29,185 bases of DNA. It comes from a virus. The stretch's first letter is position 1, and each line of letters starts with the position of its first letter. The notes under the pieces were generated by a model that saw only the letters and a list, made by a program, of their open reading frames with translations, ran no database searches and was not told the origin of the DNA. Location: the IMG/VR virus record IMGVR_UViG_3300029309_000239, positions 1-29,185 of that record, one strand, 5' to 3'. Made by a program: the position numbers and the translations under genes. Shown piece after piece: positions 5,587 through 29,185 of this stretch.

Positions 5587-6426
5587 TTATCCTCCTATTG
5601 TAACCCAATCTGTGCGTGACAATGCTTTGGCAAAGTCTCTTTCTTTGTTAAGCGTTGTCACAATATTATCGTTGTGTGTTACCCAATGTGTGAAGGCATT
5701 GTATAAAGCCCACTTGGTTTTACCAAGGCTGATTGAATAACGATACCAGTGTCCAATAAGTTCATCATGTTTTTTCTGATTGTACTTATCATTTCCGTTT
5801 AGGTCTGTACCTGTATATGAAAATCTTTTGATGAACTCATATGCATCTTCGTTATCAACTCTATGGTCTGTCCATCGTTTCCATAACCTACTTTCGTCAA
5901 AGAATGCAGTAAGACCTAGTTTCATTAGTCCAGTTGCATGAGATAAATTTATACCTAATGCATTACCTCTGGTATGTTTGTATTTTGTTTTAGTAATGGT
6001 ATCTGCTGTTGTCATACCATTCATACAAACTCTTCTTCTGCCTTTAGATTCCTGTAAGAAAGCCCAGCTACCATCATATGAATTGTAGAATAGTATTTCA
6101 AATCGTACATGGTCGCCAACAACAGGCTCAACTGTAAGGTCATCGAATATAATCTTGCCGAACATCTTTGCACCGTTGTCAAATGTTTTGATATCAGTTG
6201 TGTAATCTTTTGATATGTCAGATTGATTGACAGCATCTAGCATACTATTCACAACGTCATCATGCAGAATATATTCATACTTTGATCCATGTACACCAAG
6301 AGGTTCACCAGTATCAGTTCGTACTAATGCTCTTGCCATAGTGCTAGGGATATTAATATCACCAGCACGTATATGTTTCATTGCAACTGGGAATGCATAG
6401 TCTTTTGTTTTAGTCATGTCGTTCAT
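5587..6426 (-). CDS. DUF932 / phage-plasmid-like protein
   Basis: A 279-residue protein of the DUF932 type (also described as phage/plasmid-like protein TIGR03299), widespread on phages and plasmids with no settled function. Supporting segments are the opening beta-rich part with EPLGVHGSKYEYILHDD, FDNGAKMFGKIIFD, VGDHVRFEILFYNSYDGSWA, then RRRVCMNGMTTAD and the HTRGN region before a helical C-terminal half. The length is near the usual 250-350. AGGAGAACCAAATG marks the start. It follows a tiny membrane-protein gene, and operator copy 3 lies upstream of that gene. Confidence 0.85.
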   Translation of the reverse strand: MNDMTKTKDYAFPVAMKHIRAGDINIPSTMARALVRTDTGEPLGVHGSKYEYILHDDVVNSMLDAVNQSDISKDYTTDIKTFDNGAKMFGKIIFDDLTVEPVVGDHVRFEILFYNSYDGSWAFLQESKGRRRVCMNGMTTADTITKTKYKHTRGNALGINLSHATGLMKLGLTAFFDESRLWKRWTDHRVDNEDAYEFIKRFSYTGTDLNGNDKYNQKKHDELIGHWYRYSISLGKTKWALYNAFTHWVTHNDNIVTTLNKERDFAKALSRTDWVTIGG

Positions 6427-6626: not shown

Positions 6627-6662
6627 AAAAAAATAGTCCCTGTGCCGAAGGCACAGGGACTA
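6627..6662 (-). terminator. Rho-independent terminator (leftward)
   Basis: A 13-bp perfect stem, TAGTCCCTGTGCC (6634-6646) with its complement at 6650-6662, has a tiny loop that reads TTC inside C-G on the minus strand. It is followed on that strand by seven T residues (6633-6627). It ends the transcript of gene 6671-7228 and isolates it from the operator-controlled unit downstream. Confidence 0.93.
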
Positions 6663-6670
6663 CTGGGAGG

Positions 6671-7228
6671 TTAGTGCATTTGTACGATATTGTTCTTGAT
6701 TCTGGCTTTACGTTCTGCCATGCGTTGGGCAATCTCGTCTGATGTTGGAGCTTGAGGTGACAAGACCTTGCGCTCCATGATTTTGTCGCATTGCATGGAA
6801 TACCAATCTACGCCAAGGTCTTCTGTCACCTTGCCATCGTTCCAAGCCATGTGGTCTACCATGACGTTGAAGAGACTGACATCTACAGTCCAGAGCCACT
6901 TGGCTGTGGCTAACTCGGCTTCCGCTTTGCGTAAGCCTTTACGTAAGCCAATCAGCTTGCTTGACTCTGGACCATTGTTTTCCTCTTCGGAGGCTATCTT
7001 GGCCTCCAAGGTGTCGAGGTAATCTTGCTTCTTGATTACCTCGCGTGCGCTTTTCCGCGCACGTCCACCGAAGAGGAAGATTGCTGATGCTTGGTATTTG
7101 GGGTTCTCTTCCCCAGATACTGGATTCTGGTGAGCCTCTGGCTCATCCAGCATCAGCAAGTCGCAACCATCTACTAAGTGGTCAATTGTATCTTCTAAGT
7201 TTGTAGTTTTTACAGTTTTCTTACTCAT
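6671..7228 (-). CDS. Hypothetical protein, 185 aa, in a structure-rich stretch
   Basis: A 185-residue frame with a good ribosome site (AAGGAG, then 7 bases, then ATG) and a strong terminator right after the stop, so it is very probably a gene. I recognise no family. It begins MSKKTVKTTNLEDTIDHLVD, has LLMLDEPEAHQNP, a basic patch GGRARKSAREVIKK, a probable coiled coil (LDTLEAKIASEEEN to LRKGLRKAEAELATAKWLW) and a basic C-terminus (AERKARIKNN). No membrane or signal segment is seen. Its G+C looks higher than its leftward neighbours, and its DNA holds several long inverted repeats like those in the adjoining non-coding region. It may be an acquired pair with that region. Confidence 0.75.
   Translation of the reverse strand: MSKKTVKTTNLEDTIDHLVDGCDLLMLDEPEAHQNPVSGEENPKYQASAIFLFGGRARKSAREVIKKQDYLDTLEAKIASEEENNGPESSKLIGLRKGLRKAEAELATAKWLWTVDVSLFNVMVDHMAWNDGKVTEDLGVDWYSMQCDKIMERKVLSPQAPTSDEIAQRMAERKARIKNNIVQMH
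6756..6830 (+). other. Long-range inverted repeat inside gene 6671-7228
   Basis: GGTGACA (6756-6762) pairs with TGTCACC (6824-6830), and GACCTTG (6764-6770) with CAAGGTC (6814-6820), separated by a small 1x3 internal loop. An inner CCATG/CATGG hairpin is also possible. Fourteen matched pairs over 75 bases inside coding DNA is unusual. Confidence 0.55.
7015..7063 (+). other. Two adjacent hairpins inside gene 6671-7228
   Basis: CGAGGTAATC (7015-7024) pairs perfectly with GATTACCTCG (7034-7043) around 9 bases. Next to it, CGTGCGC (7044-7050) pairs with GCGCACG (7057-7063) around 6 bases; the two stems share no base. A third hairpin, GGAGGC/GCCTCC, lies just upstream at 6989-7007. Confidence 0.6.
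7081..7159 (+). other. Three-way-junction fold inside gene 6671-7228
   Basis: TTGCTGATG (7081-7089) pairs with CATCAGCAA (7151-7159) and encloses two arms. Arm one is TATTTGGGG (7095-7103) with CCCCAGATA (7111-7119), nine pairs including one T-G (7098/7116). Arm two is CTGGAT (7120-7125) with ATCCAG (7145-7150), capped by GAGCC/GGCTC (7132-7136/7140-7144). The wobble pair works only in a plus-strand RNA, the antisense of the gene. Confidence 0.6.
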
Positions 7229-7236
7229 AATATAAC
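7209..7236 (+). promoter_or_regulatory. Candidate rightward promoter for the structured RNA
   Basis: TTTACA (7209-7214) and TATAAC (7231-7236), each matching the sigma70 consensus at five of six bases, are 16 bp apart. Transcription would start near 7243, about 20 bases before the first helix of the structured region. The promoter overlaps the 5' end of the divergent gene 6671-7228. Confidence 0.55.
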
Positions 7237-7261
7237 TCCTTGTATTTCTAATGAGTGTTTA

Positions 7262-7504
7262 CAATATGCCCACACACCATGTGCAAGCATCGTATTCTGA
7301 GCCATAGTGGGCGATAGGTTAGTCAAGAGCGAAGTCAGCGTACCGCTGATGCCGCAGGGAACAAGAAAGTTTTGGTATCGCAAGGCAAAGCCTTGTCGAA
7401 ACTTTCTTGCACTCTTGACGAACCTGCACACTCTGGCACGCCCCTGATCAAGCTGTGCTTGGTCAGGGGTGTGATACGATTGCACTTGGTGTGTGTGTAT
7501 GTTG
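7262..7504 (+). other. Structured domain 1 (three-way junction)
   Basis: The closing helix pairs 7262-7269 with 7497-7504, 7271-7279 with 7487-7495, 7281-7285 with 7481-7485, and 7289-7295 with 7474-7480, 29 pairs in all with small internal loops. Arm B closes with 7301-7312/7426-7437, continues with AGGTT/AACCT and TCAAGAG (7323-7329)/CTCTTGA (7412-7418), and forks into TCAGCG/CGCTGA (7335-7349) and CAAGAAAGTTT/AAACTTTCTTG (7362-7409), the latter capped by CAAGGC-AAA-GCCTTG. Arm C is a continuous 15-bp hairpin, 7438-7452 with 7458-7472, including two wobbles. Confidence 0.7.
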
Positions 7505-7508
7505 ATAC

Positions 7509-7543
7509 ATGACAAGCAATCCCTCGATGGGTTTGCTTGTCAT
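7509..7543 (+). other. Structured hairpin 2
   Basis: ATGACAAGCAA (7509-7519) pairs with TTGCTTGTCAT (7533-7543). After one T/T mismatch, CCC/GGG continues to a 5-base loop. Fourteen pairs in total. A short GCGCA/TGCGC hairpin follows at 7564-7577. Confidence 0.7.
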
Positions 7544-7577
7544 TTGCTTAAGTCAGCACTATCGCGCAGACTTGCGC

Positions 7578-7706
7578 TTGCCAGAATCGAAACGTCCGTC
7601 AATCTGACGAATTGAAACTATGACAGGTGACACGCTGACCAAGCAAAGCTTGGTAGTGTCTTGTCATAGTTTCCGTCCAGATTGTCGCAACGGCCTATTC
7701 TGGCAA
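7578..7706 (+). other. Structured domain 3 (long compound helix)
   Basis: From outside in: TTGCCAGAAT (7578-7587) with ATTCTGGCAA (7697-7706); CAATCT and GACG (7600-7609) with CGTC and AGATTG (7674-7684, one bulged base); GAAACTATGACA (7614-7625) with TGTCATAGTTTC (7662-7673); GACAC/GTGTC (7629-7633/7656-7660); ACCAAGC (7638-7644) with GCTTGGT (7648-7654), capped by AAA. That makes 44 pairs in 129 bases. Confidence 0.75.
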
Positions 7707-7710
7707 CTTA

Positions 7711-7745
7711 GGGTGCAACACACATAGTGATGCTATACGTCACCC
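7711..7745 (+). other. Structured hairpin 4
   Basis: GGGTG (7711-7715) pairs with CACCC (7741-7745), and inside it ATAG (7724-7727) with CTAT (7733-7736). Its last two bases compete with the closing pairs of the next domain, so the two may be alternatives. Confidence 0.45.
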
Positions 7746-7905
7746 ACTTGCATACTATTTTGCCTCTTGTGTCGGCATTGCTTGGCGAAGCAATGACACG
7801 ACATGAGAATCCACAACAGCCACGGATGAACAGATGTTCATCATTCCCTCCCTGTTGCACAGGTTCGGCCTGCTTGTGGATTCTTACAAAATAGAATGCT
7901 AGTGG
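7744..7905 (+). other. Structured domain 5 (branched)
   Basis: The closing helix 7744-7762 pairs with 7887-7905 (17 of 19 positions, T/T and A/A mismatches). Inside are arm one, GTGT and CATTGCTT (7776-7783) with AAGCAATG (7788-7795) and ACAC, loop GGCG; and arm two, GAATCCACAA (7807-7816) with TTGTGGATTC (7874-7883), which encloses GATGAAC/GTTCATC (7825-7842) and CCTGT/ACAGG (7851-7863). Confidence 0.7.
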
Positions 7906-7923
7906 AATTGTGAAACACAATTC
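7905..7923 (+). other. Terminal hairpin with AAA loop
   Basis: GAATTGTG (7905-7912) and CACAATTC (7916-7923) form a perfect 8-bp stem closed by AAA. A further copy of GAATTGTG follows at 7925-7932 and could displace the first copy. No T-run follows, so it is not a standard terminator. Confidence 0.65.
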
Positions 7924-7965
7924 AGAATTGTGACTTGACAAGGTGTTATCTTCTGGTTCACAAAA

Positions 7966-7997
7966 GGGGGGGAACACAAGGGGGGGTTGAGAAAGGG
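7966..7997 (+). other. G-tract cluster upstream of small terminase
   Basis: Two runs of seven G (7966-7972 and 7980-7986) and one of three (7995-7997) lie within 32 bases, directly before the small terminase start. Such runs are rare in this AT-rich window. They could form a G-quadruplex in RNA or single-stranded DNA. The last run, in GAAAGGG, probably also serves as the ribosome site. Confidence 0.6.
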
Positions 7998-8003
7998 TAT
8001 TGT

Positions 8004-8381
8004 ATGAGTAACGTGGCAACGAAGCAATTAACCGCAAGACAGACGCGGCTTGTTGATACACTCGTAGCAAATGGATGTAGCGTGACTGAAGCCGCTGGTC
8101 TTGCAGGTTATGCTTCTGGTGAAGCAGGGAGAGTGACAGCCAGTAAGACTTTGCGGTTGCCACATGTGCAATCGTACATGATGCAGAGGATAGCTGAGAC
8201 AATGGGTGTATCTGCTACGTTAGCCTCTGCGAAGCTTGTGCAACTTGCTCGTGGAGCTAAGTCGGAGTACGTTCAGCTAGAAGCAAGTAAGGATATCCTA
8301 GACCGCGCAGGATTCAAAGCTCCCGAGCGTCACATGCACATGCACGCAGGAGACATAACTGTGCAGATTGACTTGACATAG
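8004..8381 (+). CDS. terS: Terminase small subunit (predicted)
   Basis: A 125-residue protein with the architecture of phage small terminases: an N-terminal helix-turn-helix segment (LTARQTRLVDTLVANGCSVT, then EAAGLAGYASGEAGRVTASK), a link to LPHVQSYMMQRI, and a helical C-terminal part with a His-rich end (ERHMHMHAGD). It would bind the packaging site on phage DNA and load the large subunit. I choose ATG 8004 because AAAGGG precedes it; the frame is open back to 7935, but that extension encodes the G-tracts. It directly follows the structured region, and the large subunit lies about 2 kb downstream. G+C looks higher than in the following genes. Confidence 0.75.
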   Translation: MSNVATKQLTARQTRLVDTLVANGCSVTEAAGLAGYASGEAGRVTASKTLRLPHVQSYMMQRIAETMGVSATLASAKLVQLARGAKSEYVQLEASKDILDRAGFKAPERHMHMHAGDITVQIDLT

Positions 8382-12099: not shown

Positions 12100-13643
12100 T
12101 GGATAAATTAGCTGAAAACATGTTGCAAAAATACGAACGTGCTAAAACGCATCGTTCTTATTTTGAGCCTTTATATGAAGAATGTTATGAATTTGCTTTA
12201 CCTATGCGTAAGAGTTTTTTTACAGAAGCAATAGGTCAAAGAAGAGATGATAAGATATTTGATGAAACAGCAGTTGTTGGTACACAAGAGTTTGCATCTC
12301 GTTTGCAATCTGGTCTTGTTCCTAACTTTGCTCGTTGGGCTGACTTTATTGCTGGTTCAGAAGTTCCAAAAGAAGAGCAAGATGCAGTAAATAATCAGCT
12401 AGATGAGGTTACAGAATATGTATTCGAAGTTATTCAAAACTCTAATTTTGGTCAGGAAATACATGAAAGCTTTATGGATTTGGCTGTTGGCACAGGCATC
12501 TTACTTGTTCAAGAGGGCAACGCAATTAATCCAGTCCGTTTTAATGCAATCCCATTACCATCTGTTATGCTGGATACTGGGCCTGATGATAACATTGACC
12601 ACGTTTATAGGGAACGTGAACTTAAATATGTCGACATACCTATCGCATACCCGAAGGCAGATTTACTTGAAAAAGTACGTAAAGCAGTCGAATCAACGCC
12701 AGAAGAAAAAGCAAAAATCCTAGAAGTTGTTTGCAGAAACTATCAACAAAAAAATGAAGAAAGATATGATTACTTTGTTATTGATAGAATGAAGCAAGAA
12801 TTAATACATCAAGAACAATTTACTGGAACAGGTTCTAATCCGTTTGTATGTTTTCGCTGGTCTAAAGCCGCAGGTGAAATTTATGGAAGAGGCCCTTTAA
12901 TTAACGCATTAAGTGCGATTAAAACTACCAACCTGACAATCGAGCTTGTATTAGAAAATGCACAGATGGCTATCTCAGGCATTTATCAAATGGATGATGA
13001 TGGGGTTATAAACACAGATACGATAAACCTTGTTCCCGGAACTATAATACCTAAAGCTCAAGGTTCACAAGGATTACAACCAATAAGACCTGCTGGTAGT
13101 TTTGATGTTGCCAATCTTGTTTTAGGTGATATGAGAAATAATATTAAACGTGCATTATACAATGATATGCTTGGCGATCCAAATAAAACACCTGCATCTG
13201 CAACAGAAGTAGCTGAACGTATGGCTGACTTATCAAGACGCATTGGCTCTGCCTTTGGACGATTACAAGCTGAAATGGTACAGCCTGTATTACAACGAGT
13301 TGTACATATATTAAAGAAACAAGGGCGTATAGAAATACCTACTATCAATGGAAGAGAGGTTAAAATACGTTCTGTATCTCCATTAGCACAAGCACAAGCC
13401 AATCAAGATATATCAAATGTATCACGTTATTTAGGTTTAGTTGGGCAAACATTTGGCCCAGAGTTGTTAAATTTACTTGTTTCATCTGAAGATACTGCTG
13501 TGTATCTTGCCAAAAAGTTTGGTGTGCCTGATTCTTTAATAAGGGATGATGCTCAAAGACAACAAATAATTATGGCGGCTCAACAACAAATGGCAATGCA
13601 ACAGCAACAAGGTATGATGAATGACCCAACATCTGGGAATTGA
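12099..13643 (+). CDS. Portal (head-to-tail connector) protein
   Basis: A 514-residue podovirus-type portal, T7 gp8 family, which forms the dodecameric ring at one capsid vertex through which DNA enters and leaves. Typical segments are the N-terminal RSYFEPLYEECYEFALP, KIFDETAVVGTQEFASRLQS, LAVGTGILLVQEG, RWSKAAGEIYGRGPL and a C-terminal SATEVAERMADLSRRIGSAF. The last 35 residues are rich in Gln and Met. The length is close to T7 gp8 (536). It is followed by a 23-base overlap with gene 13621-13878. Confidence 0.95.
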   Translation: MDKLAENMLQKYERAKTHRSYFEPLYEECYEFALPMRKSFFTEAIGQRRDDKIFDETAVVGTQEFASRLQSGLVPNFARWADFIAGSEVPKEEQDAVNNQLDEVTEYVFEVIQNSNFGQEIHESFMDLAVGTGILLVQEGNAINPVRFNAIPLPSVMLDTGPDDNIDHVYRERELKYVDIPIAYPKADLLEKVRKAVESTPEEKAKILEVVCRNYQQKNEERYDYFVIDRMKQELIHQEQFTGTGSNPFVCFRWSKAAGEIYGRGPLINALSAIKTTNLTIELVLENAQMAISGIYQMDDDGVINTDTINLVPGTIIPKAQGSQGLQPIRPAGSFDVANLVLGDMRNNIKRALYNDMLGDPNKTPASATEVAERMADLSRRIGSAFGRLQAEMVQPVLQRVVHILKKQGRIEIPTINGREVKIRSVSPLAQAQANQDISNVSRYLGLVGQTFGPELLNLLVSSEDTAVYLAKKFGVPDSLIRDDAQRQQIIMAAQQQMAMQQQQGMMNDPTSGN

Positions 13644-27111: not shown

Positions 27112-27153
27112 ATGTACATTGAGTATTTGTTTTATACATGATAGGAAAATTAT

Positions 27154-29185
27154 ATGACTATTTCATCAGGTAACAATATACCAAGAAAACATTACACAGT
27201 ATCGCAAGGTGTAACACAGACTACTTTTGCCGTAACTTTTGAATTTAATAGTCATACAGAATTACTTTTTTATGTAGATGGTACATTAACTTCACTTAGT
27301 TCGAGTGAAGTATCTGGTGGTAGTGGTTCAACAGGAACTATTACAAAATCTGTTACAGGCGCAACTGGTGGTTCTTCTGTTGTTATATTACGCAATACAG
27401 CATTAGCACGTACAACAGATTTTCCATCTACAGGCGCATTTGATATTTCACAATTAAATACAGACTTAGATACATTTTTGTATTTGTCAGCAGATGTAGA
27501 TGATACAGCTACACGATCATTAAGACTTGTTGACCACGATACAGAGATAAGTACATTATTGCCACTTGCATCTGCAAGAGCAGACAAAGTATTAGGATTT
27601 AGTTCTACTGGTGTTCCAGAAGCAAAGCCATCATTAGATAATGCTTCAATGACAACTGCTACTGGTAATGCAGGAACAAGTGCATCTGTAAGTTATACAG
27701 CAAATACCAATACATTTTTATTTACAATACCTAGAGGTAATACTGGAGTCACAGGACCCACAGGGCCAACTGGTCCTACAGGAGCAGATTCAACTGTAGC
27801 TGGACCTACAGGGCCAACTGGTCCTGCTGGACCAACAGGTCCATCTGGCCCAACTGGGCCAACAGGTTCTACAGGTCCTACTGGTCCAACAGGAGCAGAC
27901 TCTACAGTAGCTGGACCAACTGGTCCAACAGGGCCTACTGGACCAACAGGTAATACAGGACCTACTGGACCTACTGGTCCGACAGGTAACACTGGTTCAA
28001 CAGGCCCAACTGGTCCAACAGGTTCTGCGGCAACTATTGCTGTTGGCTCTACGACAACAGGTCCTGCTGGTAGTAGTGCATCTGTTACTAATTCTGGTTC
28101 ATCATCATCGGCAACATTTGATTTTACAATACCTACTGGTGCTACTGGTTCAACAGGACCTACAGGACCGACAGGTCCAACTGGACCAACTGGACCAACA
28201 GGAGCAGATAGTACTGTTGCAGGACCAACTGGCCCAACAGGATTGACAGGACCAACTGGTCCTACTGGGCCTACAGGACCTGCTGGTGCAGATGGCAATG
28301 ACGGCTCAACAGGTCCTACTGGACCGACTGGGCCTACAGGACTGACAGGCTCTACTGGCCCTACTGGTCCTGCTGGTGCGGATGGTAATGATGGTTCAAC
28401 AGGCCCAACAGGACCTACAGGACCTGCAGGACCTGCTGGTTCTACTGGCCCTACTGGTCCTACTGGCCCTACTGGTGATGGTTTTACAGGTGGTTCATAT
28501 AATTCATCAAATGGTAAAGTAACTTTTACAAGTAATGATGGTCTTGGTTTTTTAACTGGAGATTTGCGAGGAGCAACAGGACCAATTGGCCCTACTGGTT
28601 CTACTGGTCCAACTGGGCCTACAGGTCCTACAGGACCTACTGGCGCTGATTCAACTGTTGCTGGACCAACTGGTCCTGCAGGTTCAACTGGTCCGACAGG
28701 CCCTACTGGTCCTGCAGGGCCAAGTGGTTCAGATGGCTCAGATGGTGCAGATGGTTCAACTGGTCCTACGGGTCCAGCAGGTCCAGCAGGAAGTACAGGT
28801 CCAGCAGGAAGTACGGGACCAACAGGACCTACAGGTCCAACAGGTGATGGTTTCACTGGAGGCTCATACGCTCCGTCGACTGGTAAAATCACGTTTACTT
28901 CAGATGATGGTTTAGGTTTTGTTACAGCAGATTTAAGAGGTGCAACAGGACCCACAGGTCCTGCAGGAAGTACAGGTCCAGCAGGTCCTGCAGGTCCAGC
29001 AGGTCCTGCAGGAAGTGACGGTAATGATGGTTCTACAGGTCCTGCAGGTCCAGCAGGTCCAACTGGCCCAACAGGTCCAACTGGTCCGTCAGGAAGCGAT
29101 GGTAGTGATGGGGGTACAGGTCCTACAGGACCTACAGGACCTACTGGTCCTAGTGGTTCAGCAGGGTCTGCTGGTCCAACTGGAC
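27154..29185 (+). CDS. Tail fibre, T7-type anchor plus collagen-like shaft (3' truncated)
   Basis: The frame runs from ATG 27154 through the right edge with no stop (677 codons seen). Residues 1-150 fit the T7 gp17 N-terminal anchor domain ([57 protein letters not shown]), which attaches fibres to the tail. From about residue 195 the protein is a Gly-X-Y repeat (GPTGPTGPA and variants), a collagen-like trimeric shaft, with several non-repeat interruptions. The receptor-binding tip lies outside the window. AGGAAAATTATATG gives the start. It follows the internal core gene, as in T7. Confidence 0.92.
28477..28581 (+). repeat. 35-aa shaft interruption module, copy 1
   Basis: [21 protein letters not shown] and DLRGATG form a non-collagen module of 35 residues. 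A second copy of equal length lies at 28846-28950, differing at few positions. It is probably a beta-structured knob or hinge between collagen-like segments. Confidence 0.85.
28846..28950 (+). repeat. 35-aa shaft interruption module, copy 2
   Basis: The second copy keeps [21 protein letters not shown] and DLRGATG. The bases differ at many silent positions, so the duplication is not very recent or has been under selection to diverge. Confidence 0.85.

Follow-up and report, generated by a model that had tools for sequence, protein, structure and literature searches.

Between the early and late blocks of this virus record, 5′ of the gene for the terminase small subunit (TerS), lies a stretch of about 690 bases without a gene, and the locus raises the question of what such a stretch is and what it does beside a packaging gene. 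The window, by which we mean the whole stretch of DNA analysed, is a virus record of 29,185 bases. Its early block is on the minus strand and includes the recombination genes RusA, ERF and YqaJ and a DUF932 gene. The late block is on the plus strand in the order TerS (from 8004), TerL, portal, capsid and tail. No tRNA was found within the window. The closest isolate is Pelagibacter phage EXVC031P Hodr (OQ414635), with identities of 59% in TerS and 66% in TerL. This isolate infects SAR11, and the source phage is a relative of SAR11-infecting phages. An open frame at 27145–29185 on the plus strand, which encodes collagen-like Gly-Pro-Thr repeats and runs off the end of the window, belongs to a probable tail fibre.

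Fold and extent of the region upstream of TerS

The features of the region are the following:
6632–6664, minus strand: intrinsic terminator of the gene 6671–7228, from a terminator scan
6671–7228, minus strand: divergent accessory gene of 185 aa and no known family, with an unusually structured coding sequence
7244–7930, plus strand: large multi-domain structured element, probable noncoding RNA, z about −16, no Rfam or PHROG match
7262–7504, plus strand: 5′ domain, closed by the arms 7262–7286/7480–7504, with a GTGTGTGTGTA run from 7489
7509–7543, plus strand: hairpin separating the 5′ domain from the T1 domain, from the arm search
7578–7706, plus strand: T1 domain, made of an outer stem, a conserved internal loop and a long capping hairpin, −63.4 kcal/mol, z −9.1
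7744–7905, plus strand: 3′ domain, arms 7744–7762/7887–7905 around two hairpins, from the fold and the arm search
8004–8381, plus strand: TerS, first gene of the late block (Terminase_2, PHROG 51)

The plus strand of positions 7244–7932 (689 bases) folds at −320.1 kcal/mol, and 20 dinucleotide shuffles fold much worse, with a mean of −203.8 and a standard deviation of 7.3 (z −15.9). The dense structure that an earlier note on this DNA had claimed from the letters is therefore real, and all the helices that it named are present. The arms of these helices lie at 7578–7606/7678–7706 (29 nt, 72%), 7509–7523/7529–7543 (15), 7437–7453/7457–7473 (17), 7262–7286/7480–7504 (25) and 7744–7762/7887–7905 (19). 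Within the 5′ domain, the helix GTCAAGAG/CTCTTGAC (7316–7329/7412–7425, 14) closes hairpins and is accompanied by the hairpin 7437–7473. Minus-strand open reading frames crossing the element have no match in PHROG.

Searching IMG/VR with TerS retrieved 80 related loci; loci are referred to here by L-numbers. Raw folding energy per length looks uniformly extreme over all TerS-upstream regions, mostly owing to base composition. Compared with shuffles, many of these regions prove unremarkable and the window stands out as the most extreme. Its noncoding stretch, from the upstream gene to 7928, exceeds shuffles by 53%, which is among the highest values of 33 TerS-upstream regions.

The element of about 690 bases stands as the earlier note had drawn it, but the limits given for the structured zone do not, since the adjoining gene 6671–7228 is structured too. 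Relatives of this gene occur in group E, comprising L009–L013 and their relatives (43%), and weakly in group F (23–25%). Single-sequence search returned no relatives, and profile search returned group E only. Homologues are confined to the groups with a large structured element (E and F). Measured against synonymous-codon shuffles, the gene and its relatives are far more structured (z −7 to −13). The extreme structure of the coding sequence is present on both strands and is common to the homologues in L009, L013, L026 and L034, whereas unrelated genes that occupy this position in other phages mostly lack it. The neighbouring gene is the best argument that the structure of the zone goes beyond a noncoding RNA.

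The T1 internal loop is kept while its stems are replaced yet complementary

A blastn search of the element against phage records found no relative. The structured part likewise found none among the 80 TerS contigs, where the matches were the last 79 nt and short G-tract stretches. These last 79 bases before TerS (7925–8003) are 100% identical in L005 and 87% identical in L004. Group E keeps the order of parts of the window despite an identity undetectable by blastn: GTCAAGAG/CTCTTGAC around hairpins are followed by the GTGTGTGTGTA run and by a domain with AACGTCCGTCA and CGCAACGGCC. Collinear 8-mers shared by the window and L009 form a chain of 67 letters, compared to a mean of 32 in shuffled sequences, of which one in 300 reached as high. 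The collinear 8-mers and the same topology support homology of the window element and group E over the whole length.

The domain 7578–7706 of the window contains a two-part motif, AACGTCCGTY...RWCGCAACGGMC, which we call T1:
7591–7600, plus strand: 5′ strand of the T1 motif, AACGTCCGTC, near-invariant in 20 diverse sequences
7684–7695, plus strand: 3′ strand of the T1 motif, GTCGCAACGGCC, near-invariant in 20 diverse sequences

The T1 family is defined here by the paired motif between complementary stems and by a position 5′ of TerS on the same strand, both of which are found in the window. The paired-motif search detected T1 in further TerS groups too, and two pattern scans of IMG/VR gave 81 distinct T1-matching stretches. 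Of these, 51 include TerS, always downstream of the motif and on its strand (matches read by eye). Four stretches contain the same element in a contig or stretch without TerS, and 26 have neither stems nor TerS and were taken as chance matches. The T1 clades include TerS proteins only 38–41% identical to that of the window. When 20 records were scanned whole, T1 was present once each in seven and absent anywhere in the other 13. The search found no T1 in a cultured phage. A prophage or host origin of T1 was considered and rejected: the 18 matches found across 84,980 bacterial and archaeal genomes lack both the stems and TerS and are thus due to chance.

The compact form of T1 is about 100 nt long, and the extensive 5′ and 3′ domains present in the window would be add-ons to the T1 core. 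The loci L042 and L040 have, upstream of TerS, a variant of the core, AACGTCC/GAAACGG in L042 and GACGTCC/GAAACGG in L040; its inner stem is altered, the hairpin around it is that of T1 in L043, and it is apparently an intermediate form. In a distant clade (L154, L159, L169 and L172), a conserved GTGTGTGTGTG lies 5′ of the T1 core, the inner hairpin has a CCUACYGGA-type loop, and a downstream hairpin CACYCCGAGAAGGRGACAA shows a compensatory change in L172.

The stems around T1 differ between loci to the point of unrelated sequence and retain their complementarity. The core was read as stem, internal loop (N)AA / G(M), CGU/ACG, C / CA, CG/CG, U.W, Y-R, stem. In 26 non-redundant cores, inner arms fold with their own partners at −13.2 kcal/mol and with swapped partners, drawn from loci with a different arm, at −3.7 kcal/mol; the corresponding values of the outer arms are −9.3 and −3.2 kcal/mol. 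A covariation alignment of 20 cores (A4) was also prepared. Its pair counts, which lean toward the proposed stems because the alignment was built ungapped from motif-adjacent arms, include standard pairs in 92% of cells, changes on both sides in 10 of 16 pairs, and 66 doubly changed cells, where shuffles give 18.9; the swap test is free of this weakness. The covariation score is 0.50 and averages 0.14 in shuffles, none of 500 shuffles reached 0.50, and sliding the partner strands abolishes the score. One position of the core changes from C-G to U-A and U-G. The compensatory changes that the earlier note had proposed to look for in homologous phage regions are thus present.

A covariance model derived from A4 (R1) scores true loci mostly at 44–64 bits, these loci or close copies of them being themselves in the model, and chance loci at 23 bits or less. 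The window, itself among the 20 sequences from which the model was built, scores 44.5 bits (E 6e-11). Group E reaches only 15–22 bits because of a long inserted hairpin.

Rfam 15 gave no match at the gathering score on either strand of the window, and a search of 7100–8050 up to E = 5 returned two chance matches only, far below gathering. There was no match at gathering in L050, L009 and L043, or up to E = 2 in the regions of L104, L159 and Hodr. The element very probably gives rise to a heavily folded RNA and belongs to an undescribed, Rfam-unmatched family upstream of TerS, present in dozens of virus sequences. A large-scale prediction of structured RNAs in viruses was reportedly made by Fremin and Kyrpides in 2023, and its unnamed candidates could include T1. 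We are highly confident that the region is a structured homologous element under selection.

Exchange of cores and the junction with the late operon

A second core, T2, was found at the same locus as T1. It consists of CAACACGG-hairpin-GTGGNGCGGGCAG between variable stems and was first read from the alignment of group A, on which RNAalifold was uninformative owing to too little alignability. T2 is carried by group A, L015, L029, L199 and others, and by the isolate EXVC031P. The T2 core of the isolate is at 5724–5749 of L084, equal to 12261–12286 of OQ414635. Among the T2 scan matches that include TerS, TerS is downstream on the same strand in 11 of 11.

On well-supported branches of the TerS tree, the label T1 changes at least 8 times, T2 at least 5 times and the absence of both at least 11 times; these counts are rough, as T1 itself served in part to select the loci and a degenerate T1 is present in some loci labelled as having neither. 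Clear T1 variants were seen among the latter in L042 and L040 alone, so that this label is slightly overcounted. In three sets, the TerS proteins are identical while the labels (T1, T2 or none) differ, which marks the element as an exchangeable module and makes a dedicated packaging RNA less likely. L005 has a TerS 95% identical to that of the window and a short unstructured region instead of the element (z −0.9). Because L005 shares 7925–8003 but not the element, the element appears to be exchangeable, and its boundary would lie near 7925. T1 is thus gained, lost or exchanged with T2 as a module, at a fixed position and orientation relative to TerS.

Two sites flank the element:
7209–7236, plus strand: weak promoter-like site TTTACA-N16-TATAAC, which could start the transcript of the element, unproven
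7935–7986, plus strand: TTGACA (7935–7940) and tandem G7 tracts (7966–7972 and 7980–7986), conserved in close relatives

The plus promoter that had seemed plausible ahead of the element is weak: a stricter promoter scan does not list it, and no conserved plus promoter was found upstream of the element in relatives. The element ends at 7930, and TerS begins at 8004. The downstream site is probably the promoter region of TerS and the late genes. In close relatives, TTGACA is followed at 23–25 nt by two G7 tracts (GGGGGGG-AACACAA-GGGGGGG) before TerS, an arrangement that might represent a late promoter dependent on a factor. Each of the 26 T1 and T2 loci checked has a TTGACA box separating the element from TerS. 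In distant T1 clades, G tracts are missing here and TATAAT-type −10 boxes stand in their place, completing the TTGACA box to a consensus promoter (TTGACA-N17-TATAAT type). A C6 tract (TATAYCCCCCC), which could pair with the downstream G7 tracts, is located 5′ of the compact T1 in L104, L113, L119, L108, L125 and L148; the window has no C6 tract.

Given the box between the element and TerS, the element is not just a TerS mRNA leader. A polymerase starting at the box would never carry the element, and the transcript of the element must therefore start further upstream. None of the 26 loci contains a run of five or more T between the core and TerS, and thus an intrinsic terminator is absent there. 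Such a transcript would accordingly read into the late operon.

Candidate roles of the element

Two groups of phage RNAs resemble the element in part. GOLLD and ROOL are large ornate RNAs of phages and prophages (PMC12286853). Like them, the element is phage-encoded, multi-branched and hundreds of nucleotides long. However, neither covariance model matches it, nor does that of any Rfam family, and the statement of the earlier note that it could not be assigned to GOLLD or ROOL holds. GOLLD and ROOL are often, though not always, near tRNA genes, whereas the window element has no tRNA nearby, is linked to TerS and has a single internal loop that alone is conserved in sequence. An RNA cage, as in homo-oligomers of GOLLD and ROOL, is among the candidate roles that the earlier note proposed. 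The phi29-type pRNA combines a conserved fold with very variable sequence (PMC12670572). It is the RNA component of a prohead/portal motor. The element likewise keeps its fold over variable sequence, comes like the pRNA from a phage of the short-tailed type and is close to a packaging gene, but it has no Rfam match, differs in architecture and is exchanged independently of TerS. Furthermore, the source phage is not of the phi29 kind, as it has TerS and TerL packaging genes. The isolate EXVC031P Hodr shares with the window the divergent early/late layout and a structured region upstream of TerS; this region carries T2 rather than T1, is about 260 nt long and is unannotated.

The antitermination RNAs put of HK022 and nut of lambda, which are part of the transcript that they control and make RNA polymerase resistant to termination, are short stem-loops with conserved unpaired bases before long operons. 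The compact T1 of about 100 nt is similarly a short stem-loop with conserved unpaired bases ahead of an operon. It differs from put and nut in having no sequence or model match to them and in the promoter-like box between T1 and the late operon.

The functional molecule is probably a plus-strand RNA, as judged from wobble pairs. Folding energy gives no strand, since the minus strand of 7244–7932 folds nearly equally (−305.7 kcal/mol, z −16.8). The directional wobble described in the earlier note is upheld in the T1 core, where 14 G-U cells are spread over 7 columns; the core has just 3 A-C cells, which all fall on the final pair of the model, where the helix of those sequences ends or has already ended. 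The wobble evidence is thin within this sequence alone: the strand-neutral helices contain 2 single G-T mismatches and no A-C one. A wider automatic count gave 47 G-U versus 34 A-C columns (p = 0.09), and group E is neutral (69 G-T versus 71 A-C) in an automatic count of the whole cluster, which is poorly aligned and includes coding sequence. The similar folding of both strands, the lack of a G-U bias in group E and the structure of the neighbouring coding gene on both strands would suit inverted repeats that act as double- or single-stranded DNA, such as a packaging or replication site or a divergent operator. We nevertheless consider a DNA-level element unlikely. In the T1 core, G-U pairs occur without A-C inside helices and one pair changes from C-G to both U-A and U-G, and a site in DNA would have no need of long imperfect stems with an asymmetric internal loop. 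It is very improbable that the structure is an unselected by-product of mutation in a hypervariable accessory locus, through template switching or hairpin homogenisation. The locus is indeed hypervariable, structure extends into the coding gene, and L005 manages without the element, but the loop stays near-identical while all flanking stems change yet stay paired, and a neutral process is not expected to fix position and orientation upstream of TerS.

Among RNA functions, our best explanation, which we hold tentatively and at somewhat less than even confidence, is an expanded member of a new TerS-upstream RNA family of marine-type podovirus-like phages, serving as a late leader in cis. It is opposed by the finding that a near-identical TerS and downstream region can occur without any structure, in L005. 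Rather less probable is a free noncoding plus-strand RNA that acts in trans, as a scaffold, decoy, regulator or packaging RNA, and is adjacent to the late operon incidentally. Its size, its ornate fold and the retention of structure over unrelated sequence recall GOLLD, ROOL and pRNA, and the consensus promoter between the RNA and TerS in distant clades would allow separate units. However, a terminator was looked for after the RNA and none was found, and an obligate partner of TerS, as expected of a packaging RNA, is at odds with identical TerS proteins accompanied by T1, T2 or neither and with the repeated changes of the T1 label. The tandem G7 tracts directly downstream, conserved in close relatives, bring to mind a replication pre-primer similar to RNA II of ColE1, in which the transcript enters the G7 tracts, forms an R-loop and primes the host DNA polymerase. 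The scanned genes of the window include no recognisable polymerase or primase, which would fit, but the scan covered only part of the genes and the window may be an incomplete genome. The absence of the G tracts from distant T1 clades speaks against such a role, which we rate as very improbable.

For the late leader in cis, the following mechanism can be proposed from the arrangement of the locus. The transcript of the element would start in the divergent region between the early and late blocks. Kept rigid by the stems around it, whichever these are, the invariant internal loop may dock a protein or the RNA polymerase. Lacking an intrinsic terminator before TerS, the transcript would continue into the late operon, and the RNA could modify late transcription in cis, in the antitermination manner of put and nut, or contribute to an early–late switch. 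That the element acts as such a leader is, taken separately, possible but somewhat doubtful.

Few large structured phage RNAs are known, and no known family matches the element. Its conserved loop is a precise target for mutation and binding work, and natural comparisons are offered by identical TerS genes that have T1, T2 or neither next to them. The isolate on record with a T2 core makes a first transcript test practical. We speculate that the element may exemplify a new RNA design rule, in which an invariant core, T1 or T2, is set in stems and domains that close relatives rewrite completely or swap, and is linked in certain phages to a divergent accessory gene with a folded coding sequence. 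It might then be an exchangeable module of the early/late junction of abundant aquatic phages, with a mechanism that has no known counterpart.
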